DNA of 64,000 nt from an uncultured Bacteroidales bacterium (GCA_903923925.1 CAIXZF010000027.1:1-64000); one strand, 5' to 3'. Shown: positions 777 through 32,147, counted from the stretch's first letter. The notes: generated from the letters alone by a model not told the origin. Numbers and translations are program-made.

Positions 777-3464
777 TTAAAAATATGTAATTATTACCGC
801 TAGGCCGTTCGCACCTGCTCCGCCTGCTCCGCTATTTCCTACACCGTCCCGGGCTGCTCCGCCGCCGCCGCCGCCTGCCCCAAATGTGCCGCCGTTTCCG
901 CCGTTTCCGCCGTTGCCCGTTACGCTTGAACCACCGCCGCCGCCGCCGCTTCCGCCGTACCATGATGCTGCTGTACCATGTGAACTACCATTACCGCCGC
1001 TTGTGTTTATTGCTCCGGCTGTGCCTCCCGTCCAATTATTCATATTTACTGCACCATAACCGCCGCTTCCGCCTGCTGCTGCTGCATTGGCCGCCGTTAT
1101 TGTTCCGCCGCTGCCGCCTGAAGCGCCCGCAACTCTTGTGTTTAATCCTACTGCGCCCGAACCGCTTATATTTGCATTTGCTCCCGCCGCTCCTGTTTCT
1201 ATTGTATATTGCCCTAAATTATAACCTCCTAACCCTGCTGTTGTCGTTCCGCCCCCTCCGGGATAACCTTGTGAAGCCCATAAATAAGAACCAAAACTTG
1301 TTGGATCCCAAGAATATGAACCGGGGTTTCCATTAGTTGAATTTGTGGTCTGTGCCGCCCCTCCTGCGCTTCCTGCTCCCACTATTACAGTTTCGGTTGC
1401 GCTTAATGATGTTGCAATAAAATCCTTTTCACTATATGAACCGCCTGCACCGCCGCCGCCCCCGGCTGCTGAAGTTCCGGCTGTTGATTTTCGTCCCGAA
1501 CCGCCCCCGGCGCCTGCACCTATTAAAATAACTTTTACCAGCTTTGCGCCTGTTGGTTTCGTCCATGTATTCGCGCCGGTGGTTGTAAAAACTTGTATAT
1601 CTGTGGGGGTTGCTGAACCGCCGCCGCCGCTTCCCAATGGCCCTACAGTAACGCCGTTAATTTGTACATAAATACCGGCGCTTGTTGTCCATATATCGCC
1701 GTTTGCCGGGCTTGCCGGTGCTGTTCCGTGTGGTGCGCTAAAACTGGCCGCGGATGTTGTGCTGGCTCCTGCTGTTATTTTGCCGGCGGCTGTCGTTTTT
1801 CCTGTTATATCTACGCTGAATTTCGAAACATTTTGATTATATGCCCCTATCAAATTGCCCGCCTTGGTTCCGCTGGTTGTACTTAAATCGTTTATCTTTA
1901 ATATATCGCTGTCGGTATTCCCACCGCTTATATCTCTAAAAATATTTACTACTGGTAAACTTTGCGTTGTACTTGAACCATCAGTTGTAAACGTTGCCGC
2001 CGTGCGTAAATTTCCCGAAATAAATGCTGCGCCGCCGCTGCTGCTGGTGCTACGGGCGTATAATGCGTATGTGCCTAAAGTTGTTACAAATTCAGCCGCG
2101 TTACCGACTTCTCCCTGAACATATATTCCGGGGCCTGAACTTGCCGAAAAATAACCGGCATAACCGTTCGCGCTGCTTGAATTAATGCCCTGCGTTGTGC
2201 TTGTGGCAGTTGCTTGTAACATTGCCCCGGTGCTTGTTCCTCCTACCGCTATTTTTCCGCCGTTAAATATTCCATTTCCGTTAATTCTAAAACCCGCGCT
2301 TTGATCGGCGGCGGTTTGGTTTTGTATGTAATTTAAGGCCGGTATATCAGCCGCAACCAATGCCCGAAAAGTAGGTGTACCGGTTGAACCATTGGGAGCT
2401 GCAAATATTTTGTTTGTTGTTTGTGTTGCCCAGGATCCTGCTAATGTTCCTGAAGTTGTTACAGGACTTCCAGTTACTGAAAATTCGGCTGGTAAAGTTA
2501 GACCAGTGCTTGTTACTGTTCCTGTATTGCTCGTTTTATTGTTAAAAGTGTTCCAGTCGGTAGATGTTAAATAACCACTTGCGCTGGTGGTAGCTGCTGG
2601 CATTGCAATAGTTAATCCACTGTTAAGTGTTCCGCCTCCGGTTAATGGGGATGTGGTTGACAAACCTACACTTGTACCTATGTAAGGTAGTGATGGGATA
2701 TCCGCAGAAACTAGCGAACGAAATGAGGGTGTACCGGTTGAACCATTTGGAGCTGCAAATATTTTGTTTGTTGTTTGTGTTGCCCAGGATCCTGCTAATG
2801 TTCCTGAAGTTGTTACTGGACTTCCAGTTACTGAAAATTCGGCTGGTAAAGTCAGACTTGCGCTTGTTACTGTTCCTGATGTATTGCTTTTGTTATTAAA
2901 AGTATTCCAGTCGGTAGATGTTAAATAACCACTTGCGCTGGTGGTAGCTGCTGGCATTGCAATGGTTAATCCAGTGTTAAGTGTTCCGCCTCCGGTTAAT
3001 GGAGCTGTGGTTGATAACGTTTTATTAAATACAATATAATAACTTGATAAATTGGGAAGGTCTAAAACATTTATTGTTCTAAATGTTGGTGTTACCGGAC
3101 TCCCGGTTACTGGACCAGCTAGAAATGTTGATACTACAGCAGTGTTAAGATTTGCAGTTAAAATTCCACTTCCTGTAATTGGGCTTCCACTTACCGAAAA
3201 AATACTAGGCATTGATAATCCCACACTAGTAACTGTGCCACTTCCACCTATAGATGAAATAGAATCATTTTCCCAAGAGAGTACACCTCCCTTTAACTTT
3301 AAAATTTTACCATCAGTACTTTTTGTTGCTGGAAATTTATATCGATATGCAGGATTTCGTCCAATCGATAAACTGTCAAGAACTTTTGTCCATCCCACTG
3401 TCTGTCCATCAACATATGATGTTGCAGCAAACAAGAAAATCAAAATGTAAAATATTTTTTTCAT
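777..3464 (-). CDS. large glycine-rich spike / tail-fibre-like adhesin with a signal peptide
   Basis: 895 aa. Layout: Sec signal peptide (1-20); a Thr/Ser/Gly-rich repeat region (about 70-400) with recurring units containing TGGGTLN, ASGYLTSTDWNTFNNK and GSPVTTSGTLAGSW; a middle region; and from about residue 615 a C-terminal domain that starts with a WTKPTGAKLVKV strand and becomes a Gly-rich sandwich. Such repeats and Gly-rich ends are typical of Bacteroidota phage fibres and of polyglycine phage adhesins, so host-receptor binding is the likely job. The DNA for the Gly-rich end (780-1660) is much more GC-rich than its neighbours. Its ATG overlaps the stop of 3461-3757 (ATGA). The Sec signal is the oddity. 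Confidence 0.75.
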   Translation of the reverse strand: MKKIFYILIFLFAATSYVDGQTVGWTKVLDSLSIGRNPAYRYKFPATKSTDGKILKLKGGVLSWENDSISSIGGSGTVTSVGLSMPSIFSVSGSPITGSGILTANLNTAVVSTFLAGPVTGSPVTPTFRTINVLDLPNLSSYYIVFNKTLSTTAPLTGGGTLNTGLTIAMPAATTSASGYLTSTDWNTFNNKSNTSGTVTSASLTLPAEFSVTGSPVTTSGTLAGSWATQTTNKIFAAPNGSTGTPSFRSLVSADIPSLPYIGTSVGLSTTSPLTGGGTLNSGLTIAMPAATTSASGYLTSTDWNTFNNKTSNTGTVTSTGLTLPAEFSVTGSPVTTSGTLAGSWATQTTNKIFAAPNGSTGTPTFRALVAADIPALNYIQNQTAADQSAGFRINGNGIFNGGKIAVGGTSTGAMLQATATSTTQGINSSSANGYAGYFSASSGPGIYVQGEVGNAAEFVTTLGTYALYARSTSSSGGAAFISGNLRTAATFTTDGSSTTQSLPVVNIFRDISGGNTDSDILKINDLSTTSGTKAGNLIGAYNQNVSKFSVDITGKTTAAGKITAGASTTSAASFSAPHGTAPASPANGDIWTTSAGIYVQINGVTVGPLGSGGGGSATPTDIQVFTTTGANTWTKPTGAKLVKVILIGAGAGGGSGRKSTAGTSAAGGGGGAGGSYSEKDFIATSLSATETVIVGAGSAGGAAQTTNSTNGNPGSYSWDPTSFGSYLWASQGYPGGGGTTTAGLGGYNLGQYTIETGAAGANANISGSGAVGLNTRVAGASGGSGGTITAANAAAAGGSGGYGAVNMNNWTGGTAGAINTSGGNGSSHGTAASWYGGSGGGGGGSSVTGNGGNGGNGGTFGAGGGGGGAARDGVGNSGAGGAGANGLAVIITYF
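2375..3003 (-). repeat. 354-bp-period direct repeat inside the spike gene
   Basis: Two nearly identical stretches of about 275 bp, 2375-2649 and 2729-3003, are offset by exactly 354 bp (118 codons). They encode tandem copies of the TGGGTLN / ASGYLTSTDW / EFSVTGSPVTTSG / KIFAAPNGSTGTP unit. Because the period is a multiple of three, recombination between copies would lengthen or shorten the fibre without a frameshift. Confidence 0.9.
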
Positions 3465-3757
3465 AATACTGCCATTACTATATAATCACAATGTGCATCA
3501 ATTGGAACATTTATTATGAAATGGTCTGAAGCCTTTGCAATTACATCCCATTTTACATCCCCATCATAATTGTAACATTCGGCCTGAACAACATAATCAA
3601 CCGTACCCAAATCTGATGTGAAATAAACATTATTATCGCCAACTGCTAAAAATACTCCAATTCCTCCCCTGACATTATTTTGATAACTGTCCGCCGGGCT
3701 GGTAGTACCTCCGGAACCCGTTGAAGAATTAATAATAACCGTCCTGAAGCCGCCCAT
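3461..3757 (-). CDS. small element protein, possible virion or spike-base protein
   Basis: 98 aa, no signal peptide. Begins with a hydrophobic beta strand (FRTVIINSS), then a Gly/Ser/Thr loop, and is predicted from sequence to be mostly beta (VYFTSDLG, VDYVVQAE, FIINVP). Three Cys residues. Its TGA overlaps the ATG of the spike gene by 4 nt, so translation is probably coupled to the spike. This suggests a partner such as an attachment base, but the family is not recognised. Confidence 0.6.
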   Translation of the reverse strand: MGGFRTVIINSSTGSGGTTSPADSYQNNVRGGIGVFLAVGDNNVYFTSDLGTVDYVVQAECYNYDGDVKWDVIAKASDHFIINVPIDAHCDYIVMAVL

Positions 3758-3777
3758 TCAATCATCTATTATCAAAA

Positions 3778-4059
3778 TTATTTTTTAAGAGTTGCAAAGG
3801 TTTTGACAACCAGTAATTGTTCTAAATTCCTAGAAGCCGGATCGTAAGTCCCACGGTATGAAACCCTAAATTTTTGAGTAATTGAACAGTACGGTTCATT
3901 AATAAACTCGCGTATTTTAGAGGGTGAAACAATTACATTGTCCATTATATATACATTCGAGGCACCAAGGTTTTCGAAACTAATGGAAATACAACCCTCT
4001 GGATCAACAATTGCATCTCCTGTAATTATTTCTGCTTTATATGTTATGTCGTATTCCAT
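3778..4059 (-). CDS. small beta-rich element protein, probable minor virion protein
   Basis: 93 aa, no signal peptide or membrane segment. Alternating hydrophobic pattern (ITYKAEIITGDAI, ISISFENLGASNVYIMDNVIV) suggests a small beta sandwich. It sits in the late operon between a 33-aa membrane protein (4062-4163) and 3461-3757. Its ATG is two bases after the stop of that membrane ORF. Unidentified; structural role inferred from location only. Confidence 0.55.
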   Translation of the reverse strand: MEYDITYKAEIITGDAIVDPEGCISISFENLGASNVYIMDNVIVSPSKIREFINEPYCSITQKFRVSYRGTYDPASRNLEQLLVVKTFATLKK

Positions 4060-4061
4060 TA

Positions 4062-4163
4062 CTATTTTTTGTATTTAGAAATTAATGCGAAAATGCCCCC
4101 CATTACCAGGAGACTGAGAAAACTAATGCCTATGACTTTTTTTTTTGCTCTAACAACTCCCAA
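4062..4163 (-). CDS. 33-aa single-pass membrane protein (TTG start)
   Basis: A short frame starting at TTG (4163) reads MGVVRAKKK, then a hydrophobic span of about 17 residues (VIGISFLSLLVMGGIFALI), then SKYKK and a TAG at 4062-4064. Positive residues flank the membrane span on both sides. It overlaps the end of the muralytic gene (4130-4543) by 34 nt in another frame, and its stop is two bases before the next ATG. It fills an otherwise empty 70-nt gap. Small membrane proteins are common in membrane-containing tailless phages. A non-ATG start and short length make this tentative. Confidence 0.5.
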   Translation of the reverse strand: MGVVRAKKKVIGISFLSLLVMGGIFALISKYKK

Positions 4164-4543
4164 CCTTTCAGGATTAACCTAAAGTCCGGTTCAATACCAT
4201 TCTCATGTCTGGAAATTGCAGCCATGATCTTTTTTATGTAATCGGCCTGATCAATTGTTATTACAAAATTTGGCTGAATGCCTGTCTGGATAGCTACACT
4301 ATTGATATAAGCTTTTGTGTTGTTCTCCACAGGTGGGGCCCAACGTGTAATTATTTTTTCAATGGTATTATAGCCTGAAGAAATGAAATTTACAAGAACC
4401 TTCATTGCGGCTCTGTAACCATAATCCATTGTTTGAAATTGACGAAAACGCTTGTCAGTTCCGGGAAAAACTTCACCTAAAAATGGTTTTGAACCTTTTA
4501 CAAGATTTCCGGGGTTGTTGTTACGATATCCTAATGTTGGCAT
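4130..4543 (-). CDS. virion-associated peptidoglycan hydrolase-like protein (RNNNPGN family)
   Basis: 137 aa. The N-terminus has the hallmark GYRNNNPGNL, followed by FRQFQTMDYGYRAAMKVL and IEKIITRWAPPVEN, the signature of a family widely annotated as 'structural protein P5' or lysozyme-like in phages of Gram-negative hosts. A role in local peptidoglycan opening during entry or release is inferred from family context; no catalytic residue was assigned. It follows a 93-bp repeat (4563-4655) and precedes the 33-aa membrane ORF. An ATG at 4543 is used. Confidence 0.7.
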   Translation of the reverse strand: MPTLGYRNNNPGNLVKGSKPFLGEVFPGTDKRFRQFQTMDYGYRAAMKVLVNFISSGYNTIEKIITRWAPPVENNTKAYINSVAIQTGIQPNFVITIDQADYIKKIMAAISRHENGIEPDFRLILKGWELLEQKKKS

Positions 4544-4562
4544 TTTGTTAGCATTTTAATGT

Positions 4563-4655
4563 TTAACCTGGTGAAGATCCCAGCTGCCGGCACAACATTT
4601 TGTTAGCAATCTAATGCCAGGCTTCCGGGTTCCGGAACAACTTTTGTTATCATTT
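4563..4655 (-). repeat. 93-bp repeat, copy A (inverted relative to 17673-17765)
   Basis: Read on the minus strand, this stretch matches 17673-17765 (plus strand) at 85 of 93 positions without gaps. It begins inside the stop region of the SH3-like gene (4650-5081). It contains two TAACAAAA motifs, a GTTCCGGAAC palindrome and a CAGCTG palindrome; a third related motif, GCTAACAAAATGCC, lies just beyond at about 4541-4553. Each copy sits directly downstream of a gene reading toward it. Function unknown. Confidence 0.9.
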
Positions 4656-21977: not shown

Positions 21978-23114
21978 ATGAGATCCACACATTGCAGTTT
22001 AATCGTTTGTCCCGAATCGGGTGAAAAGCTTTTGCTTGAATCATTTAAAACAAATGCAGAGCTTACTAAAGAAGGAACCTCTTTTGAGGATATTGAGTGT
22101 GGTATATTGTATACTTTGCAGGGATTTCACTACCCTGTTATTGATGGAATTCCAAGAATGTTACCAAATCCGCAGAAACTTTTTCCGGGTTTTTATTCAA
22201 AATGGAAAGCAGAACTCCACAAGATTCCTGAACTTAAGTTATCAACGGTTTCCGGATCTTCTTTGCAGTTTATCACGGATTACCAGCCGACCTTAAAACG
22301 TTTTGGAAGAGAATGGAAGAAACACAATTTAGAGGGATTAACCTGGGGTCTTGATCAGGAAACCCGGATTTCGCACTTTCTCACTTATATGGATATCAGC
22401 AAAGAGGAACTGAAGAATAAACTGATTCTCGACGCAGGAGCAGGTTCAGGACAATTAACCTGCAAGCTTGCCAATTATGGATGTACAATTGTTGGAATCG
22501 ATTTATCGCCTTCAATAGAGGAAGGATGGAGAAACCGGAAAAAGTTTTCGCCGGGAAATTATCAAAATATTCTTTTAGTTCAGGGAAACCTTATGAATCC
22601 TCCTTTCCCTGCAAATACATTCGAATTAATTCATTCTTCAGGCGTTCTGCATCATACTCCTGATACTAAAAAGGCATTTTTTAAGGTATCCGATCTTTGT
22701 AAGCCGGGAGGAAAATTTGCAGTGTGGCTTTACAGCATAAATGAGGGTTCATTTTTGCCAGTTTTCCCATTTATCAGTAAGCGCTTTCTTTCTGTAAATA
22801 CCAAAACTTTACGGAAATTCACACCGAAACTACCAGCAGCTTTCCTTTACAACAGTATACTCACCTATGTTTTTATCCACCATAGTTTTTATAAATTAAA
22901 CACACTGCTTAGAGGCCGAAAACACGAACAAACTGTAAGAGAAAGAGTTACCAGTTTATTTGACTGTCTTGCTCCGCCTTTTGTATGGCAGCATGATCCG
23001 GAAGATGTGATGCGATGGTTTAAAATGAGTGGCTATACAGAAATTAAAGACTGTTCGATTCCGGGAGATCCGGATGGTTTCAATATCTGCGGTGTAAAAA
23101 TGCCTACAGATTAA
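21978..23114 (+). CDS. class I SAM-dependent methyltransferase
   Basis: 378 aa. N-terminal Trm112-like segment (CPESGEKLLL ... YPVIDGIPRMLP, about 10-62), then a Rossmann methyltransferase: LILDAGAGSGQLTCKLA (motif I, about 150-166), VGIDLS (motif II), and ELIHSSGVLHHTPDT. Substrate unknown; proteins of this shape often act on lipids, quinones or sugars. Its 3' end overlaps the archaemetzincin gene by 11 bp. Confidence 0.82.
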   Translation: MRSTHCSLIVCPESGEKLLLESFKTNAELTKEGTSFEDIECGILYTLQGFHYPVIDGIPRMLPNPQKLFPGFYSKWKAELHKIPELKLSTVSGSSLQFITDYQPTLKRFGREWKKHNLEGLTWGLDQETRISHFLTYMDISKEELKNKLILDAGAGSGQLTCKLANYGCTIVGIDLSPSIEEGWRNRKKFSPGNYQNILLVQGNLMNPPFPANTFELIHSSGVLHHTPDTKKAFFKVSDLCKPGGKFAVWLYSINEGSFLPVFPFISKRFLSVNTKTLRKFTPKLPAAFLYNSILTYVFIHHSFYKLNTLLRGRKHEQTVRERVTSLFDCLAPPFVWQHDPEDVMRWFKMSGYTEIKDCSIPGDPDGFNICGVKMPTD

Positions 23115-23643
23115 GGAAATCTATTTTACTGCGGCAGGCAGAACATAAGCCTGTATTTTTCTGGTCAATATCTTCCACATAGGTACTTGATCGCATCACA
23201 CAGGATGGATTGTGACAATGCAGAAGACCGAAGGTATGGCCAAGTTCATGAACTACTTCCTTTACTGTGCGGTCGAGCAATAGCTTTTCATCGAGTTTCA
23301 TCCCATAGCGTTCGTTGCTTAAGCGGTATACAGAAGCAATTCCGCTGCGGCCGTTAAGAAATGCCTGTCCGAAGATATAGGTAAGAATCGGGATGAAAAG
23401 ATCAACATTAAATAGGCCGAAGGTTTTCAAAGAATCACCACCAAACCGTGAATCCACCTCTTTTAGTAAAGAATTTCCGTTATACTGTCGCCTGGCGGGA
23501 TCATAAAACTCGCTTAAGTCCATATGTCCTTCCTTAATCCTTACCTGAAACTGAAAATCACGGGATATTTCACCCGCAACTTTTTCAAGAAATTCGTTCT
23601 CGAAATATCCAAATGAAACTAATGCGATATCTTGCAGACTCAT
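23104..23643 (-). CDS. archaemetzincin-family zinc protease
   Basis: 179 aa. The metzincin signature HELGHTFGLLH is followed by CHNPSCVM (Met-turn) and CSACR; the four Cys form a second, structural zinc site typical of archaemetzincins. Cytoplasmic, no signal peptide. Length agrees with the family (about 180). The physiological substrate is unknown. It lies 31 nt past the start of the response-regulator stop, pointing the same way. Confidence 0.9.
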   Translation of the reverse strand: MSLQDIALVSFGYFENEFLEKVAGEISRDFQFQVRIKEGHMDLSEFYDPARRQYNGNSLLKEVDSRFGGDSLKTFGLFNVDLFIPILTYIFGQAFLNGRSGIASVYRLSNERYGMKLDEKLLLDRTVKEVVHELGHTFGLLHCHNPSCVMRSSTYVEDIDQKNTGLCSACRSKIDFLNL

Positions 23644-23673: not shown

Positions 23674-25014
23674 CTACAGGGCAGGTTTCAGATCATATTT
23701 TTTGATTTTATTGTAGAGGGTGACCCTGTCGACATCAAGCGCTTTTGCCGCTCTGCTTATATTCCAGCTGTATTTCGTAAGAATCTGGTGTATATGATTT
23801 TTTTCCAGATCATCGAGACTTTCGAATGAACTTCCGACAACATTTTTTTCCAGGGGCAGATCTTTAAGCGTTATTTTCCTGCCATTTCCGATTACAATAG
23901 CCCGTTCAATCATGTTTTCGAGTTCGCGGATATTCCCGGGAAATTTGAATTCCTGAAGGCGTTGAAGAGCAGCCGGATCGATAGAAATCGGTGGCCGGTT
24001 CATTGAAGTGCAATACTTCTTGATAAAGTAGTCGACAAGTAATGGAATATCATCTGTCCGTTCGCGCAATGGCGGAATATTAATGTTTACTACATTGAGC
24101 CTGTAATATAAATCTTCGCGGAAGCTTCCTTCATCCACCATGCTTTTAAGGTCGCGGTTTGTAGCACAGATCACCCTGAAGTCGGATGTAATTTCTTTGT
24201 TTCCGCCAACTCTTACAAAGCTTTTCGACTGCAGAACGCGCAAGAGTTCAACCTGCATTTTTGTAGAAATTGTAGAAATTTCATCCAGGAAAATGGAGCC
24301 GCTATCGGCCATTTCGAATCGGCCTTTCCGATTATACATAGCGCCTGTAAAGGCACCTTTTTCATGTCCGAACAGCTCACTTTCGAGTAAACTTTCGCTT
24401 AAGGCTCCGCAGTGAACTATTACAAAAGGAAAATATTTTCGGGGAGAATTCGCATGTATAACCTTGGCTATAAGCTCTTTTCCGGTACCACTTTCGCCAG
24501 TAATAATTACAGAGGAATTCGATTGGGCCACACTTTCAACTTCTTTTAGTACAAGGCGCATGGCTTCGCTGTTTCCAATAAGGTCTTCGGTATTATCAAG
24601 AGCAACAACTTTTTCGCGGAGTACTTCATTTTCTTCGGCAAGGGAGATCAGCTTTGAAGCGTTGCGGATAAGGTGTGAAAGGTCGTCGGGATCGAAAGGC
24701 TTTGTAACATAATCGAAGGCACCGTCCTTCAGAGCCTGAACCGCAGTATCAACAGTTGCAAAAGCTGTCATTACAATTACGATGGAATCCTTACGCAGGG
24801 TTTTTATCCTGCGGAGCATTTCGAGTCCATCCATCCCCGGCATTTTAATATCTGCAAGCACAATGTCAAAATCTTCAGATTCGAGAATTTGCAGTGCTTT
24901 CTTGGCATTTTCGGCGCATTCGACGCGGTAACCGTCTTCAATGAACCAGTTGTACAAAGAATCCCTTACGGAGTCTTCGTCGTCAACGATTAAAATTGAA
25001 ATTTTCTTCGACAT
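23674..25014 (-). CDS. NtrC-family sigma54-dependent response regulator
   Basis: 446 aa. Receiver domain with Asp55 (VLADIKMPG) as the phosphoacceptor; AAA+ domain with Walker A GESGTGKE and the sigma54-contact loop GAFTGA; Fis-type HTH at the C-terminus (ISRAAKALDVDRVTLYNKIKKY). It lies 12 nt after the heme-motif kinase, its likely partner. Four 17-bp dyads at 31625-31754 upstream of a sigma54-like promoter are plausible binding sites, so it probably activates the HybAB-like module. Confidence 0.92.
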   Translation of the reverse strand: MSKKISILIVDDEDSVRDSLYNWFIEDGYRVECAENAKKALQILESEDFDIVLADIKMPGMDGLEMLRRIKTLRKDSIVIVMTAFATVDTAVQALKDGAFDYVTKPFDPDDLSHLIRNASKLISLAEENEVLREKVVALDNTEDLIGNSEAMRLVLKEVESVAQSNSSVIITGESGTGKELIAKVIHANSPRKYFPFVIVHCGALSESLLESELFGHEKGAFTGAMYNRKGRFEMADSGSIFLDEISTISTKMQVELLRVLQSKSFVRVGGNKEITSDFRVICATNRDLKSMVDEGSFREDLYYRLNVVNINIPPLRERTDDIPLLVDYFIKKYCTSMNRPPISIDPAALQRLQEFKFPGNIRELENMIERAIVIGNGRKITLKDLPLEKNVVGSSFESLDDLEKNHIHQILTKYSWNISRAAKALDVDRVTLYNKIKKYDLKPAL

Positions 25015-25026
25015 GGTAAATTCTCC

Positions 25027-26694
25027 CTACTCTCTAATTACCGGTAAAGTTATTGAAACTGTAGTTCCCTTGCCTGGCTCCGATTTAACATCTGCTTTTC
25101 CTTTGTGGCTCTGGATTATACCATGTACAATTGCCAGACCCAGCCCGATTCCGCTCGATTTCTGTTTCGTGGAAAAGAAGGGTTCAAAAACATGTACCTG
25201 ATCTTCAGGGTCGATACCAATTCCATTATCAATGATTTCGATTCTGATGTTATTCTGATCCGGATTTATTGTTCTGATTGTAATGATACCATTTTCAACA
25301 ATTGCCTCAGAAGCATTGACGAGAATTGCCACACAGGCTTGTTTTATCTGGTTCGGGCTACAATAAATCAGATCCAAAGAAGCTGTGAATTCTGAATAAA
25401 AGCCAATGTTGGCAATTTTCATTGGATGATTCATCAGGTCAAAAATATCATGTAAAATATCATGTAAATGCTTAGGCTCATAATCGTTCTGGTCTTTTCG
25501 TGAAAAATCGAGCAGGCCTTTTACAATATCTCCGCAACGTTTGGTTTCGTTTTCGATGAGAACAAGATTTTTCAGCATGCTCTCCTTTTTCCTGGGCTCC
25601 AGTTCCTGATTGCTCAGCTGTTTATAGACTAATTTTGTGTAGATCAGAATTCCGGATAATGGATTGTTTATCTCATGGGCTACCGAAAGGGATAGCTTAC
25701 CAAGTGAAGCAATTCTTTCAATATTTATAAGTTCGTTTTGCACTTCTCCAAGTTCTTCTGATTTTTTCTGCACCTTGTATTCAAGTTGCTGCGACCAATT
25801 CTGTAGTTCGTTGGTAGCAGTGTGCAGATTATCAAGCATATCATTAAATGCTACAGAAACCATTCTCATATCGTCGAGCTGGTTTGGTTTTATTTCAAGT
25901 CGCGTACTCTTATCTCCATTGGCAACGGCGATACTTGCTTTAATAATTTCATTAAGCGGGTTCTGTATTTTTCTCCTGGTGAAGATTATCAGAAATCCTA
26001 CCAGCACCAGTGTTGTAAATGTTGCCAGGAGGAAAAAATCTGTTGATGATTTTTTAAGCGTGGCATCCAGGTTCTGAAGGGGAATCTTTATCACAAGTGA
26101 GCCTAAGACCACATCTGATTTCTGGTGCGCATGACATTCACTGATATAGCAGGATTTTTCGTTTAGAATCGGTGATTTTATGAGGAGATGCCTGTGGTTG
26201 TTGTCAGGCAGATTCATGCTGCAATTGCTGTTGATATCGATAATCCTGTATGATTTGCCTTTCCCGGGAAACATGGAGGCAATGCTTGAATGACAGCCGA
26301 CGCAGTTGGCATTGCTGTGTGTTAAGGTATCATTTGCAAAAGATGTATAAACCAGACTGTCTTTCCCATCATACATATTCACTTCATCAATCCCTGAAAG
26401 CGTATTGATAATATCCAGCGTATTCTGCAGCGCTCCTTTGTCGTTTTCGAGCATGGAGCGGTAAAGTGCTCCCTCAACAAGATATCCAATATTATTGCCA
26501 CTTTCATGAATTACGCTCTTCATGTAGGTTTCGTTTACCGACAGAAATATTATTCCAAACGAAACAAAAAGAAAGACAGACAATATGGTAATTACATATA
26601 CCACCTGTCCGTAAATAGATGATCTGACTCTGGCGTAGCGTTTAAGTATTGAAGTACCTACTTTGGTTTTGTAGTTTCTTTTAAAGAGTCCCAT
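25027..26694 (-). CDS. sensor histidine kinase with periplasmic c-heme motif
   Basis: 555 aa. TM1 at about 31-54, periplasmic domain about 55-205, TM2 about 210-235, HAMP, a coiled coil, HisKA with AHEINNPLSG and an HATPase domain (DNGIGIDP, GLGLAIVHG). The periplasmic part holds CVGCH (131-135), a c-type heme attachment motif, and C182-x4-C187-His188. A covalently bound heme would let it sense redox state or a gas. It is transcribed separately from the respiratory module, with the sigma54 activator downstream. Confidence 0.88.
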   Translation of the reverse strand: MGLFKRNYKTKVGTSILKRYARVRSSIYGQVVYVITILSVFLFVSFGIIFLSVNETYMKSVIHESGNNIGYLVEGALYRSMLENDKGALQNTLDIINTLSGIDEVNMYDGKDSLVYTSFANDTLTHSNANCVGCHSSIASMFPGKGKSYRIIDINSNCSMNLPDNNHRHLLIKSPILNEKSCYISECHAHQKSDVVLGSLVIKIPLQNLDATLKKSSTDFFLLATFTTLVLVGFLIIFTRRKIQNPLNEIIKASIAVANGDKSTRLEIKPNQLDDMRMVSVAFNDMLDNLHTATNELQNWSQQLEYKVQKKSEELGEVQNELINIERIASLGKLSLSVAHEINNPLSGILIYTKLVYKQLSNQELEPRKKESMLKNLVLIENETKRCGDIVKGLLDFSRKDQNDYEPKHLHDILHDIFDLMNHPMKIANIGFYSEFTASLDLIYCSPNQIKQACVAILVNASEAIVENGIITIRTINPDQNNIRIEIIDNGIGIDPEDQVHVFEPFFSTKQKSSGIGLGLAIVHGIIQSHKGKADVKSEPGKGTTVSITLPVIRE

Positions 26695-26802
26695 TGCCCA
26701 TTTCCCACACGATTAATTAGTAACTAAGTTAGTACATTCCGGCGAATTATTGTGGTACATTATCTCACTTTTATTTAATCAGTTTCAGCGGGGTAAAAAA
26801 AG

Positions 26803-26852
26803 AAAAAGCACTTTTCTTCTGCAAATTGTTTATGCATTGAAAAAGTGCTTTT
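26803..26852. terminator. hairpin ending the respiratory operon
   Basis: AAAAGCACTTTTC (26804-26816) pairs with GAAAAAGTGCTTTT (26839-26852) with one bulged A. It sits 39 nt past the stop of 26891-27604 and upstream of the kinase, separating the two transcripts. Confidence 0.75.
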
Positions 26853-26890
26853 CATTTCATTATCAGATTATTACATCGATATTACAGCCA

Positions 26891-27604
26891 TTATATCACA
26901 AGAAAGTCTTTTTGGAAATCAGACCAAACTTCTGTTGGCATTTCAGAGAGCGCATTATCACAGAGTTCTCCTCCATCCTGGAGTATAACCATTGATGGTT
27001 CAGGGGAGTACTTTTTCATGGAAACAGCCACAAAATCCTTAAATCTCTCGAGCTCAAGTTCCGACCAGCTGGTGGCATCTCCGGCAAGGTAATAATCGCT
27101 TGTTTCAGCAACCCAGTTTGTTGGTTTCAGTTTGTAGACCCAACCTTTTCCATACGGATCATCGTTCACAATTTCGGGGCTTTCAATAAGCAGTGTGTTT
27201 GTATTCAGCACAGTTCCTGAAATGGGTGAAAGCAGGCTAAGGGTTTTGCCGTTCTGATCGATTTCTGCCAGCAGCTCACCTTTGAGAATCGTTTCGCCAG
27301 GTTTTCTGAAGTTTCTGAATTTTACAACTCCGGTGATGTGGAGCAACAAATCATCTAATCCAACCCTGGCTGTACCCGATTTTTCAAGGTGTGTCCAGGT
27401 GTGGTTTTTGCAGTAAAACAGGCCTTGCGGAATTCTGAGTGTTTTAGCAGAAAGGATTCCCAGTACTTTTTGAATTTGCTTGCTTACTTTAACCTGTTTG
27501 TTGAGAATAACCCAAAATGGGATCAGGATAGCAAAGAATGTAATAATTGCAAGGTATTCTATCCCTTTTGTTTCGAAAATGTTTGTATAACTAAAGCCGT
27601 CCAT
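26891..27604 (-). CDS. membrane-anchored GcvH-like protein
   Basis: 237 aa. N-terminal TM helix (about 15-34), then a biotinyl/lipoyl fold like glycine-cleavage H protein (about 62-180: KNHTWTHLEKSGTARVGLDDLLLHITGVV, LSPISGTVL, DPYGKGWVYKLKPTNW). The Lys in QNGKTLSLLSP falls near the lipoylation site, one residue off the H-protein spacing, so lipoylation is uncertain. A C-terminal extension ends with VILQDGGELCDNALS...WSDFQKDF. It is paralogous to the end of 29788-31473. No other glycine-cleavage genes are nearby; it serves the HybAB-like module. Confidence 0.8.
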   Translation of the reverse strand: MDGFSYTNIFETKGIEYLAIITFFAILIPFWVILNKQVKVSKQIQKVLGILSAKTLRIPQGLFYCKNHTWTHLEKSGTARVGLDDLLLHITGVVKFRNFRKPGETILKGELLAEIDQNGKTLSLLSPISGTVLNTNTLLIESPEIVNDDPYGKGWVYKLKPTNWVAETSDYYLAGDATSWSELELERFKDFVAVSMKKYSPEPSMVILQDGGELCDNALSEMPTEVWSDFQKDFLVI

Positions 27605-27650
27605 TTGATTGATATTTAAAGTTTAACTAAATTTTTATATACAACTGATA

Positions 27651-28880
27651 TTAATTTTCTTCTTTAACCCATGAAGGAGAATCTCTTAGTACCGGCATTC
27701 TGTTGATTACCCATTTGAAGATCCAGATTTCAGTGAAGATTACCGCCAGTGTAACCACGATCTCCATCCATGTTGGCACGTAACGGATTGGCATATCCCA
27801 TTTAAACCCGATCACAGTTACATTCAACCTGTTAAGAATTACTCCAAGCATTGTGATTATTGCTGCAATCCGTATCAGAAGAATATTATTCCTTCGGTAA
27901 CTGATGTAGAACAGTATCATTGGAAGCAGCACAAAACCAAACATTTCGAGCAAAAACCACTGTCCCATCCCGGTGTTCAGTAAATCCCAGTGTTTTCCAT
28001 GAATGAAAACCAGCAATTGCATAAATAAGTAGGCAAACATAGCGCCGGTGCAAATTTTGGCCAGGCCATGAATGATTCCGTTCTGAGCTTTATTATCTTT
28101 TTCACTGATCATACGGTGGAAAACCTTGTGGCTGATTGATCCTTCGAAAATAACCATCGAAAGTCCGGCGAAAATGCTTGATACAAAAAACAATATGGGA
28201 ATGAATTCATTATACCATAAAGGATGGATCTTATCTTTTGCCATGAGGTAGAGGGCGCCCAGTCCCGACTGATGCAATGTAGAAAGCGTAATTCCAAAGA
28301 TAACTGCACCAATTGTCATTCCGGAAAGGATTTTACGGGCACGCTTAGCCCCAAGCCATTCGGCAACAGCCGGCGAGAATTCGATGAGCTGTGCCAGCAT
28401 ATAAAGCAGAAAATGCCAGGCAACAAGGAACAATACCGAACTGGTACCAAAATTATTCCCGATTATGGGATTAATAACGTTCCAGGGGCGGCCAAGATCG
28501 AGGAGCAAAGCTCCTGCATAGAATACATATGCAAGAAAACCGTTGAGTACAGTAATTCTTACAATAGAATGGTATTTGTGCATATTGAGGATATACACCA
28601 TAAACGTAAGCACGTAGGCTCCTCCGGCAAAAGCAACACCAGTTACTACATCAAACCCAATCCAGAGACCCCAGGGAATCTCCTGCGACAGATTAGTAAC
28701 TGCACCAATTCCTTTCCAGAAACGGATTACAATTAAAACCAGACCGAGCAGCATTATTGGTAAGGAGATAATATTAAAGGGAGTAAAGAACTTTGTCTTT
28801 GGTTTTAGCTCGCTGAATATAAATTTCCAGATGGGCTGTCCATCATTATCTTTGGCGATAGGGTATGTTGTATTACTCAT
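27651..28880 (-). CDS. HybB/NrfD-family quinone-linked membrane subunit
   Basis: 409 aa from ATG 28880, which overlaps the end of the ferredoxin gene by 8 nt; upstream codons in the same frame are not protein-like. About ten TM helices, with NrfD/HybB features (PWGLWIGFDVVTGVAFAGGAYVLTF, LLLDLGRPW, FVSSIFAGLSMVIFEGS). It would exchange electrons between menaquinone and the HybA-like ferredoxin. No hydrogenase or catalytic oxidoreductase subunit lies in the window. Confidence 0.88.
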   Translation of the reverse strand: MSNTTYPIAKDNDGQPIWKFIFSELKPKTKFFTPFNIISLPIMLLGLVLIVIRFWKGIGAVTNLSQEIPWGLWIGFDVVTGVAFAGGAYVLTFMVYILNMHKYHSIVRITVLNGFLAYVFYAGALLLDLGRPWNVINPIIGNNFGTSSVLFLVAWHFLLYMLAQLIEFSPAVAEWLGAKRARKILSGMTIGAVIFGITLSTLHQSGLGALYLMAKDKIHPLWYNEFIPILFFVSSIFAGLSMVIFEGSISHKVFHRMISEKDNKAQNGIIHGLAKICTGAMFAYLFMQLLVFIHGKHWDLLNTGMGQWFLLEMFGFVLLPMILFYISYRRNNILLIRIAAIITMLGVILNRLNVTVIGFKWDMPIRYVPTWMEIVVTLAVIFTEIWIFKWVINRMPVLRDSPSWVKEEN

Positions 28881-29736
28881 TTTCGTCTCCTTCCTTATGA
28901 TCTTTTTTAGTTGCTTCGTGTATTCCAAGTAATAATGGTGGCAGCAGCACAAATACAGAAGGCACGCTATACAGGAAGCCCTTTGAAAGTGCAGGATATG
29001 ATTCTTTTTGTATGGCAGGATTAAAGCCCAATTCATTCATAGGGACAGGTGATAGATAGATGAATCCTGTGCCTCCGGCATCGTGTTCACCGTAAATAAT
29101 ATCGGTGTAAACTTTTGGGTTTTCAGCGATTCTTTTACGGGCTTCAGTAATGAGTTCTCTGCGTGTTCCAAACAACAGTGCTTCACCAGGACAGCCTTCG
29201 GCACAAGTAGGCATTTCTCCCTTGATTACCCTGTCGTGACACATATCACACTTTACTATTTTAGGATTTGCACTGTGGTATTCAAATTTTGGAACATCGT
29301 ACGGGCAGGAAACCATGCAGTAGCGGCATCCCATACATTTTTCACTCCTCCAGATTACGGCTCCTTCTTTAGTTTTACACATTGCCTGTGTAAGGCAGGC
29401 TGCAGCACAGGCAGGCTCATTGCAATGCATACACTGTTTTTTGATATAAACCTCGTCTTTCGAGGTCTTATAGCAATTTACAACTGTACGTTGTATTTCG
29501 CTGGTGTTGCGGATAACTCCAGCTTCCGGAGCTTTAGCCGGTTCTGGCAAACCATGTGCTTTTGCACAAAGTCGTTCGCAGGCACGGCATCCAAGGCACA
29601 TTGTAGGATCGTACAACATTCCGTAGAATTCGGTTTTGGTATCCTTTTTGGTAGTAGCTCCAAAATTTTTTCCTACGGCTAGCGTTGCTCCAACAACTCC
29701 AAGTGTTTTTAAGAAATCTCTTCGATCTAAGCCCAT
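28873..29736 (-). CDS. HybA-like periplasmic 4Fe-4S ferredoxin subunit
   Basis: 287 aa. Tat signal (RRDFLKTLG) at the start, four Cys clusters (CLGCRACERLC, CMHCNEPACAAAC, CMGCRYCMVSC, CDMC...CAEGC) for four 4Fe-4S clusters, and a C-terminal TM helix (about 255-275). This is the HybA type that hands electrons to HybB. It overlaps the HybB-like gene by 8 nt and follows the PBP-GcvH fusion gene. Confidence 0.9.
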   Translation of the reverse strand: MGLDRRDFLKTLGVVGATLAVGKNFGATTKKDTKTEFYGMLYDPTMCLGCRACERLCAKAHGLPEPAKAPEAGVIRNTSEIQRTVVNCYKTSKDEVYIKKQCMHCNEPACAAACLTQAMCKTKEGAVIWRSEKCMGCRYCMVSCPYDVPKFEYHSANPKIVKCDMCHDRVIKGEMPTCAEGCPGEALLFGTRRELITEARKRIAENPKVYTDIIYGEHDAGGTGFIYLSPVPMNELGFNPAIQKESYPALSKGFLYSVPSVFVLLPPLLLGIHEATKKDHKEGDENE

Positions 29737-29787
29737 TGTAGTTGGTTTTTATAGTAATTGAATAGTTTGTTATATAGTAAATGGCAT

Positions 29788-31473
29788 TTATTTGTCAAGA
29801 AAATTTGTTTGAAAATCTTCCCAAACTTCTGGTCCGAAATCTGTTAATACATTATCTTTAAGTTCACCACCATCCTGCAGAACAACTGGGAATAATTCCA
29901 TTGAGTTTGTTTGCATTGCTGCAGACAGAAAGTCTTTGATACGTGTAAATTCATTTGTGATCCATTTTCTATATGAATCGGCCATGAGCAGGAGTTGAAT
30001 TTCCCTGATCCAGTTTGAAGGTTCAATTTCATAAATCCAGCCATCACCATAAGGCGATTGGTTTATAATACCTGAGTTGGTGATTAATAAATCATTATGT
30101 GAATTTATGTATCCGGAAACAGGAGCCTTCACATTTAATTGCTTTCCGTTTTGGATGAGCGTGAGAATAATTTCACCCTTGGTTATTTTTTCACCGGTTT
30201 TTCTCATCTTGATGCGTGTAACATTTCCGGTGATGTGCTGAAGGAAATCATCAATCCCTATTCTAACATTACCATCTTTTTCCATATAAACCCAGGTATG
30301 AGTTTTATCAAAATAAAGACCATTTGGCGACTTAACTGTGGTTTCATTAATGAAGCCATCATGAGTAACTGTAGTTTTAACTCCAACAGATTTTCTGCGT
30401 CTCAGAAAGGTGTAGAGTGCAGTAATAAATAATCCAGCAATTACAAATCCGGCAAATATCAGTAGGATACTCTCACTGTTTGATACAACATTCGAAGGAG
30501 CTGCAGCTATTCCTGTATTGTCGAGCAGGTCGATTTTTGCCTGTCTGTCGCTTAGCACAAGATCACAATATCCATTTGCACTTAAATATGCCTGTCCATC
30601 GGCAAGTACCCATTTCATAAAAGATTTTTCAGTTTCATTTACCGGCATCGAAGGAGCCAAAGAATAAATGCTTTTGCATAAGGACTGAGGGTATTTTCCA
30701 ATCCAGACGCCTCTGAGGAAGGTCTGCCAGTTATCGTAAATCTGCTCGCTATACTCCAGTTTACCATTGCCATTCTTGTCGATGGGAAGCATGCTGATGC
30801 CAGACATTATCCTCATATTATGCTCATCAAGCATATTAACCATTCTGCAGAAACCTAAGGACAGAGGGTCTTTCTCAATTGCGGTAATCAATTCCTGAGG
30901 ATTTGCTACCATAGTCACTTTGAGTGAATTCTTGTTTGTGGAGAGAAAAGAAGTAATAGCGGCAGTCATCGAATTATCAGAAATCATATAAATATGAAGC
31001 GGAGAATTAAGACCTGATACCACAAATGTTCCCCAATTCTGACCAAGTGTTGTGGTGAATGCTTTTGTGAGTTCTGTTTTTGTAACGCCAACCTGATTCA
31101 GCTGACTCAGGTATGGGTTTGATGAATTCATTACAGGAACAATAGCATCGCGACCAACGACCATTTTCCAGGTATATTCGTTAATTTCCGATTTTACAGG
31201 TTCACTCGAAACGAAAGTGATTCCGGCTTCAGAGTTAGCCATATTTTTAATTCCTGAACCAGAAACCTTAATCAGGTTAATTTTTACGTCAGGGTTCAAC
31301 TTCATGTATTCAGCAGTCCACGTTGAGGTGAGTGAATACAAATCTGGAGAAGTGGAAACGGTAATGTTGGTAGTGGCGGCATTACTACCGGTTTTGTCAG
31401 GATTGCTTCCTGAGATACTGCTGCATACTACAAGTAGCAGAAGACCTACGATTGAAAAGATTGTGTTTTTCAT
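29788..31473 (-). CDS. periplasmic-binding-protein / TM / GcvH-like fusion
   Basis: 561 aa. Signal peptide with a Cys near 18 (LLLVVCSS), a PstS-like substrate-binding domain (about 33-330: ITVSTSPDLYSLTSTWTAEYMKLNPDVKINLIKVSGSG, GVWIGKYP, KSFMKWVLADGQAYL), one TM helix (about 338-360), then a cytosolic GcvH-like domain (about 388-505) and the same QDGGEL...EDFQTNFL tail as 26891-27604. It leads the four-gene operon. The fusion places an extracytoplasmic binder and an H-protein-like domain on either side of the membrane; role unknown. Confidence 0.8.
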   Translation of the reverse strand: MKNTIFSIVGLLLLVVCSSISGSNPDKTGSNAATTNITVSTSPDLYSLTSTWTAEYMKLNPDVKINLIKVSGSGIKNMANSEAGITFVSSEPVKSEINEYTWKMVVGRDAIVPVMNSSNPYLSQLNQVGVTKTELTKAFTTTLGQNWGTFVVSGLNSPLHIYMISDNSMTAAITSFLSTNKNSLKVTMVANPQELITAIEKDPLSLGFCRMVNMLDEHNMRIMSGISMLPIDKNGNGKLEYSEQIYDNWQTFLRGVWIGKYPQSLCKSIYSLAPSMPVNETEKSFMKWVLADGQAYLSANGYCDLVLSDRQAKIDLLDNTGIAAAPSNVVSNSESILLIFAGFVIAGLFITALYTFLRRRKSVGVKTTVTHDGFINETTVKSPNGLYFDKTHTWVYMEKDGNVRIGIDDFLQHITGNVTRIKMRKTGEKITKGEIILTLIQNGKQLNVKAPVSGYINSHNDLLITNSGIINQSPYGDGWIYEIEPSNWIREIQLLLMADSYRKWITNEFTRIKDFLSAAMQTNSMELFPVVLQDGGELKDNVLTDFGPEVWEDFQTNFLDK

Positions 31474-31624: not shown

Positions 31625-31754
31625 TGTTTAATTATTAAACACAGTGTTGTGTTGAATTATTATACAGTTATAAAGCAAATTCTTTGTATTGATTTGAAAT
31701 TCAGAGCATTAAAGAAGGTGTTGAATTTCTATACAGCTGTTGTATTATTCAACA
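31625..31754. promoter_or_regulatory. four 17-bp dyads, candidate activator binding sites
   Basis: TGTTTAATTATTAAACA (31625-31641), TGTTGAATTATTATACA (31650-31666), TGTTGAATTTCTATACA (31719-31735) and, on the minus strand, TGTTGAATAATACAACA (31738-31754). They share TGTT-AAT-WNT-ACA and are arranged in two pairs, 54-183 bp upstream of the sigma54-like promoter, the usual distance for enhancer sites of NtrC-family proteins. Confidence 0.6.
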
Positions 31755-32147
31755 CATGGTTTTTAAGAGATTGATTTTTAGGTATTTGCTAAAACTGTAA
31801 ATACGCTTTTTTTACGCAAGGAAGGATATTTGACCAGCGGCAGGCGTCACCTCTATTCCTGGCTCCTCGAGGAGAAAGGGAGCACTGTTGCCGAAGATTC
31901 TGGAATCAACATTATCCTGTAACGTAAACATTCAGATAATGGTTCTATCGATATATTTGGACGAATAAAAGGCTTAATAAACCAGTATGAAAATGTAGCA
32001 ATTTACCAGTGGATCAATTACATGGTGTCTATAAATTGATAAACTGGTACATTGATAAACTGGTACATTGATAAACTAGTACATTGGTAAATTGGTACAT
32101 TGTAATTTGTTGCCTTCTCAGCAGGCCTGTTGTGCTAATATTCTATC
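31755..32147. other. gene-free stretch with a 16-bp tandem repeat
   Basis: No convincing gene. A 16-bp unit, TTGATAAACTGGTACA, occurs about four times in tandem at 32036-32099 with single-base changes. A GC-richer patch at 31825-31925 has a short open frame (YLTSGRRHLYSWLLEEKG) that could be a gene fossil but is too short to identify. Confidence 0.6.

Follow-up and report, generated by a model that had tools for sequence, protein, structure and literature searches.

Qrc is a cytochrome c3:menaquinone oxidoreductase (PMC13059093), whose QrcD subunit was reported only from Deltaproteobacteria in a 2021 survey (PMC8076601). The residues shown to matter in QrcD and in HybB of Escherichia coli hydrogenase-2 (Hyd-2) concern menaquinone and proton transfer, and two papers on Qrc and NrfD, when searched for glycine cleavage or GcvH, the H-protein of that system, mentioned neither (PMC13059093; PMC8076601). 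Here, we describe a cluster of seven genes in a 64,000-nucleotide stretch of DNA from an uncultured Bacteroidales bacterium (GCA_903923925.1 CAIXZF010000027.1:1-64000; hereafter the window), which encodes HybA- and HybB-like proteins together with two GcvH-like (H-fold) proteins, a sensor histidine kinase (HK), a response regulator (RR) of the NtrC family and the archaemetzincin AmzA. To our knowledge, archaemetzincins have solved structures and no known role. On balance, we favour reading the cluster as a membrane module for menaquinone-linked electron transfer that regulates itself and has non-lipoylated H-fold proteins as accessory subunits. No published description of this module was found in the open-access literature, from which subscription journals are mostly missing, so that absence is not proof; the same literature contained no paper on GcvH together with HybB and nothing relevant on archaemetzincins.

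A seven-gene cluster around a HybA/HybB-like pair

The seven genes, each placed by Pfam and NCBIfam models, lie in a row on the minus strand from 31473 to 23104 (Table 1). The initial annotation had described the first four as an operon of a PBP domain-GcvH fusion, HybA/HybB-like subunits and a second GcvH-like protein. All four are present at 26891-31473 on the minus strand, but this interval is too short, as the HK, RR and AmzA genes (26694-23104) belong to the same module. The start of the HybB-like gene (ATG 28880) overlaps the HybA-like stop codon, and a terminator-like hairpin between the second H-fold gene (GcvH2) and the HK gene suggests that the seven genes form two transcription units rather than one operon. 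The hairpin is missing from the list produced by a simple consensus terminator scan.

As had been proposed, P0002 and P0003 match the models for HmcB/HybA and HmcC/HybB, but no score reaches its curated equivalog cut-off (HmcB 295 bits, cut-off 420; HmcC 413 bits, cut-off 550). The HybB-like protein scores above the cut-off of the NrfD family (PF03916; 50.5 vs 25.8 bits) and has 10 hydrophobic helices. The HybA-like protein has retained its cluster cysteines, with 16 cysteines in common with E. coli HybA, and residues D58, R89, Y99, S129, E148, H184, E291 and R329 of E. coli HybB are kept as D77, R108, Y118, S148, E167, H203, E312 and R351. Variants at HybB D58, R89, Y99, E148 and H184 and at QrcD D70, Y110, Y150 and S138 are impaired, while S129 is not essential in Hyd-2 and a role has been proposed for R329 (PMC13059093; PMC8076601). 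This conservation supports a menaquinone link for the window pair, for which quinone reactivity is predicted.

In several relatives, including locus L125, the place of HybAB is taken by QrcABCD, flanked by HK-AmzA-RR genes and by H-fold proteins with a DGG tail (H-fold/DGG proteins; see below). QrcA of L125 is over its cut-off, with QrcD (569.9/570 bits) and QrcC just below theirs, whereas the window proteins themselves are not Qrc (QrcD model 78/570 bits, QrcC 56/400). The replacement of HybAB by Qrc argues that the module serves to exchange electrons between menaquinone and cytochrome c in the periplasm. L125:730-7216 also places Qrc menaquinone reductase genes, with H-fold/DGG proteins on their flanks, in the phylum of the window.

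HybAB's periplasmic partner would probably be a multiheme cytochrome c encoded elsewhere in the genome. Several such cytochromes are present, multiheme genes adjoin the module in several relatives, and a 577-residue protein with 20 CXXCH motifs (L232:148-1881; G000 C93) is a candidate. By family, the HybA/HybB-like proteins come nearest to Hyb-2 and Hmc, and they might serve in trans, as orphan subunits, the single NiFe hydrogenase of the genome, with the H-fold genes as mere passengers. However, the genes of that hydrogenase form a complete operon of their own on a different contig, small subunit and cytochrome b included. H-fold genes accompany HybAB from one phylum to another, and no hydrogenase gene was noticed in the module of relatives in the loci read. 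A standard hydrogenase beside these genes in relatives, which the initial annotation had named as grounds for refutation, was thus not seen there. We consider service in trans very unlikely and rejected it on the completeness of the hydrogenase, which has its own cytochrome b. In line with the initial annotation, none of the seven cluster genes encodes a hydrogenase or glycine-cleavage enzyme; the only large hydrogenase subunit is on another contig, and so is the genome's genuine, lysine-bearing gcvH (contig C35).

H-fold domains without the lipoyl lysine

P0001 combines a PBP_like_2 match (residues 28-290, 57 bits, cut-off 27), a transmembrane (TM) helix (335-353) and a GCV_H match (386-506, 83 bits, cut-off 22), which bears out the suggestion that a GcvH-like domain is fused across the membrane to a PstS-like one. 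P0004 consists of an N-terminal TM helix and a GCV_H match of 79 bits. Both H-domains are over the PF01597 cut-off, and their proposed paralogy is upheld by 44% identity across a 187-residue alignment (E=4e-57) that takes in the LQDGGEL tail. An AlphaFold model (pLDDT 89, a prediction confidence score) compared with GcvH by Foldseek gave a TM-score of 0.91 (target length), so that the domains can be described as a GcvH fold with an extra long helix and a DGG tail. The tail, which had been thought private to the pair, is indeed common to both, but DGG (or EGG) also ends 93/108 module-linked H-domains of other genomes. Hydropathy and charge predict a topology in which both H-domains are cytoplasmic and the PBP domain lies outside.

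The lipoyl-lysine column was aligned across ~120 module-linked relatives, E. coli GcvH and eight genuine GcvH controls. Lysine occupies it in all nine genuine GcvH sequences (9/9) and in only ~6 of the ~120 relatives, where the usual ExxK setting is absent. In both window domains the column, at the hairpin tip, is glycine; in nearly all relatives it is Gly, Asp, Asn or Ser. The window domains remain below the equivalog cut-off of TIGR00527 (69 vs 115.85 bits), the ESGKW lipoyl site of LbpA is absent from them, and the seven cluster genes include no sHdr genes. With the lipoyl lysine missing in both and in nearly all relatives, the module H-domains are probably not lipoyl carriers, and their sequences probably mark them as non-lipoylated relatives of the glycine-cleavage H-protein. 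The idea of an undescribed electron-transfer or carrier system built on an H-fold at the membrane is supported as regards H-folds beside an electron-transfer unit, and is not supported as regards the carrier.

A carrier could still be imagined if a lipoyl or other covalent group that shuttles electrons or chemical groups were attached one residue further on, since both window proteins and many Bacteroidales orthologues have a lysine there (QNGK); the lipoate-binding proteins of sHdr systems illustrate that H-folds can serve redox systems. Yet shifting the lysine of lipoyl domains by one place abolishes lipoylation, and the +1 lysine is itself variable, being replaced outside these orthologues by R, A, N, H or others. 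Together with the lysine column, on which we rejected a lipoyl carrier, this makes modification of the +1 lysine highly improbable.

The predicted periplasmic domain of P0001 has a PstS-like fold. It reaches 44/206 bits with the PstS model TIGR02136, and the GSG phosphate loop is not conserved in orthologues, which led us to rule out a phosphate sensor. An EF-hand-like loop in this domain (DKNGNGKLEYSE; window 30700-30800, P0001 residues ~230-245) is largely conserved in orthologues and is a possible Ca site. Many second H-fold proteins of other loci carry an N-terminal four-cysteine motif, CxW...YxLCDxxFxCxxCPxD (e.g. L139:5509-6354, L128:13558-14274 and L131:5902-6633), which has no Pfam match and may represent a Zn or Fe-S site. 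In the deltaproteobacterial loci L019, L021 and L022, three or four H-fold/DGG genes are clustered beside AmzA, and inspection of L021 revealed HdrA- and HdrB-like genes near them.

The heme kinase, sigma-54 regulator and AmzA block

The survey of AmzA (PF07998) covered 297 genomes from the phylum of the window and ~200-250 from each of the phyla to which a Bryobacterales and a Deltaproteobacteria genome belong. In the 94 neighbourhood stretches, which were fetched with the best-scoring matches first and hence do not give unbiased frequencies, a short AmzA adjoins HK and sigma-54 RR genes at 32/32 loci of the window's phylum and at 12/20 and 13/38 loci of the two further phyla. HybAB and/or an H-fold protein are found near 26/32, 11/12 and 13/13 of these, compared with only 0/8 and 2/22 of the AmzA loci without two-component genes in the two further phyla. 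At the same thresholds, control loci of other gcvH genes (63 loci, 864 kb) contained no HybA, HybB, HK, RR or AmzA.

The order GcvH-HybA-HybB-GcvH-HK-RR-AmzA recurs in at least three phyla, the common arrangements being H-A-B-H-K-R-Z and H-A-B-(x)-K-R-Z; where inspected in other classes, the x protein, encoded between HybB and HK, likewise has the H-fold and DGG tail (hhalign 99.5%). Eight Bacteroidales loci keep the window order as far as their contigs run. Among 295 genomes of the class that were profiled, the tailed H-fold pair occurs in only one other, which indicates that the pair is rare and patchy in Bacteroidia.

AmzA of the window passes the archaemetzincin cut-off of NF033823 (159 vs 145 bits). 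Of 95 AmzA proteins, 89 have an intact catalytic and structural zinc signature, among them all those with both kinase and regulator adjacent.

CXXCH is present in 56/68 matched kinases, and 56/56 of those have a second C-x(3-5)-CH motif. The window kinase has CXXCH, but its sensor domain gave no Pfam match up to E=5, and we therefore rejected its identity as an sCache_heme (DUF3365/Tll0287) sensor; the sensors of three relatives showed weak matches, below cut-off, to the heme sensor of methyl-accepting chemotaxis proteins (MCP; PF21563). DUF3365 Cache sensors carry covalent heme; those joined to signalling parts bind NO (nitric oxide), and stand-alone ones are thought to be redox-like (PMC12889525), so either mode is possible for the module kinase. 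The other Bacteroidia genome with the module has two adjacent heme kinases (L157:6381-9781), apparently a duplication, and the kinases of L019, L021 and L022 have a Rossmann-like N-terminus (GxGxxG) in place of the heme motif.

Upstream of the first gene, TGGCAY-N5-TTG occurs in 9/10 orthologues against 0.03 expected from Markov shuffles, and is accompanied in orthologues by one to four copies of a 17-bp palindrome, TGTTGAATWWTTCAACA. The window contains seven palindrome matches (two strands) where 0.58 are expected, and the cluster of three palindromes is unique in the 4.6 Mb genome. Given this uniqueness, the two-component system most probably regulates this operon and few other genes. A wider regulon was discarded: the 13 most palindromic other matches in the genome have no second good copy nearby or sigma-54 element, and nearly all are intragenic. 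Between the cluster and the next gene lies a 16-bp tandem repeat, ATTGATAAACTGGTAC, in 4.2 copies (32035-32102).

Table 1. Features of the seven-gene cluster and its upstream region, in window coordinates.
Feature	Position	Strand	Description
PBP-TM-H (P0001)	29788..31473	-	Signal peptide, PstS-like domain (predicted periplasmic), TM helix 335-353, H-fold domain (predicted cytoplasmic), DGG tail
HybA/HmcB-like ferredoxin (P0002)	28873..29736	-	Predicted periplasmic; twin-arginine translocation (TAT) signal, 16 cysteines common with E. coli HybA, C-terminal TM helix
HybB/HmcC-like NrfD membrane subunit (P0003)	27651..28880	-	~10 TM helices
TM-anchored H-fold protein (P0004, GcvH2)	26891..27604	-	No lipoyl lysine; DGG tail
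Terminator-like hairpin and U-tract	26795..26855	-	Between GcvH2 and HK; z -3.7
Sensor HK	25027..26694	-	Extracytoplasmic domain with CVGCH and CYISECH (CX4CH) heme-c motifs; HAMP
NtrC-family RR	23674..25014	-	Receiver (REC), sigma-54 activator and Fis-type helix-turn-helix domains
Archaemetzincin AmzA (M54)	23104..23643	-	Intact HExxHxxGxxHCx4CxM...CxxC
Sigma-54-like -24/-12 element TGGCATCTTTATTGAA	31556..31571	-	Conserved upstream of orthologous first gene
17-bp palindrome TGTTTAATAATTAAACA	31625..31641		Likely RR site (predicted)
17-bp palindrome TGTATAATAATTCAACA	31650..31666
Near-copy of palindrome TGTATAGAAATTCAACA	31719..31735		By inspection
17-bp palindrome TGTTGAATAATACAACA	31738..31754

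Several observations weigh against a regulated menaquinone module. The -12 half of the sigma-54-like element is without the usual GC, which is why the promoter is put forward as a proposal. Conservation does not extend to the HybB quinone-site residues S105, E133 and S190, the second of which is Leu in the window, and no catalytic or cytochrome subunit is encoded inside the window cluster. HK-RR-AmzA lacks a HybAB or H-fold neighbour in seven loci, which implies that the signalling half can stand alone. The pairwise distances of HybB and AmzA correlate (r=0.56; 0/1000 permutations), which counts in favour of the module, and those of HK, RR and AmzA do so as well (r 0.74-0.85), but these correlations may partly reflect species relatedness.

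The tighter co-variation of the two-component genes and AmzA with each other than with HybB (0.56-0.67) would also suit H-fold domains that are mainly signalling parts rather than structural subunits, reporting the state of HybAB or of the periplasmic domain to the kinase and regulator, or recruiting AmzA. HK-RR-AmzA is accompanied by H-fold proteins without HybAB in L164, L167, L173, L201, L206 and L215-217, and the Ignavibacteria locus L017 encodes fusions of H-domains with receiver domains. In contrast, H-fold genes flank HybA-HybB in the commonest gene orders and share their promoter in the window, as subunits would; we regard a chiefly signalling role as rather unlikely. The L017 fusion (2516-3349 and 3426-4586), a Response_reg receiver joined to GCV_H, is in itself an unusual output domain for a regulator.

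Proposed mechanism and comparison with known systems

In the favoured reading of a menaquinone-linked module, HybA, predicted to be periplasmic with four Fe-S clusters, and the NrfD-type HybB would form a complex for electron transfer between menaquinone and a periplasmic partner, acting as donor or acceptor, while protons would enter or leave through HybB from the cytoplasm. The H-fold/DGG proteins may be anchored next to HybAB as accessory subunits whose H-domain faces the cytoplasm; given the loss of the lipoyl lysine, this domain would be a protein-docking scaffold and not a carrier. In Bacteroidales, one H-fold protein would in addition place a PstS-like domain in the periplasm. Through its c-type heme, the kinase could sense a redox state or a small ligand, and the phosphorylated regulator would bind the 17-bp palindromes and switch on the H-HybAB-H genes via sigma-54. 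AmzA, a putative cytoplasmic zinc protease, may cut a component, for which the H-domain tail or the regulator is our guess, and so reset the system. A bolder version, which we hold only tentatively, is a conserved system of respiratory control in bacteria, in which the non-lipoylated H-fold subunits of a menaquinone-linked NrfD complex couple its redox state directly to a dedicated heme kinase/sigma-54 circuit and to proteolytic reset by AmzA; this would be the first physiological role of an archaemetzincin and a new use of the H-fold. Anti-phage defence was ruled out, as PADLOC gave no match.

Taken as a whole, the initial annotation was right in its observation and half right in its interpretation, having overlooked the heme kinase, the sigma-54 regulator, AmzA and the Qrc version of the module. 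With this block, archaemetzincins gain a concrete gene context in bacteria that is open to experiment. A family with the H-protein fold has apparently lost lipoate and become part of membrane complexes of respiration, and a single conserved block for heme-sensing regulation connects menaquinone complexes of the Hmc-like and Qrc-like kinds in at least three phyla, many of the carriers being known only from metagenomes.

Each part belongs to a known kind; what is new, judged by the open-access literature, is how they are combined, together with the H-fold subunits that have lost lipoylation and the link to archaemetzincin. The best family match of the HybA- and HybB-like proteins is HmcBC of the Desulfovibrio Hmc complex, with which the cluster shares a TAT ferredoxin and an NrfD subunit. 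Unlike Hmc, it is without the multiheme cytochrome HmcA and HmcDEF, and adds H-fold proteins, a heme kinase and AmzA. With HybA/HybB of E. coli hydrogenase-2 the window pair has the cysteines and key proton/quinone residues in common, whereas the hydrogenase subunits are absent, the scores lie below cut-offs and 3/6 proposed quinone-site residues differ. QrcABCD occupies the same module position in several relatives, but the window proteins themselves are outside the Qrc families. GcvH and LbpA of sHdr have the same fold as the module H-domains, which differ in lacking the lipoyl lysine, in their TM anchor, in the added DGG tail and in their neighbours; the 'GcvH-related protein' (desulf) family NF045810 of NCBIfam is related in fold, yet the module domains score 39-41 bits against its cut-off of 150. 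Finally, the window AmzA belongs to the archaemetzincin family by its score and its full zinc-binding and cysteine signature, and is set apart by its association, in these bacteria, with a heme kinase and a sigma-54 regulator.

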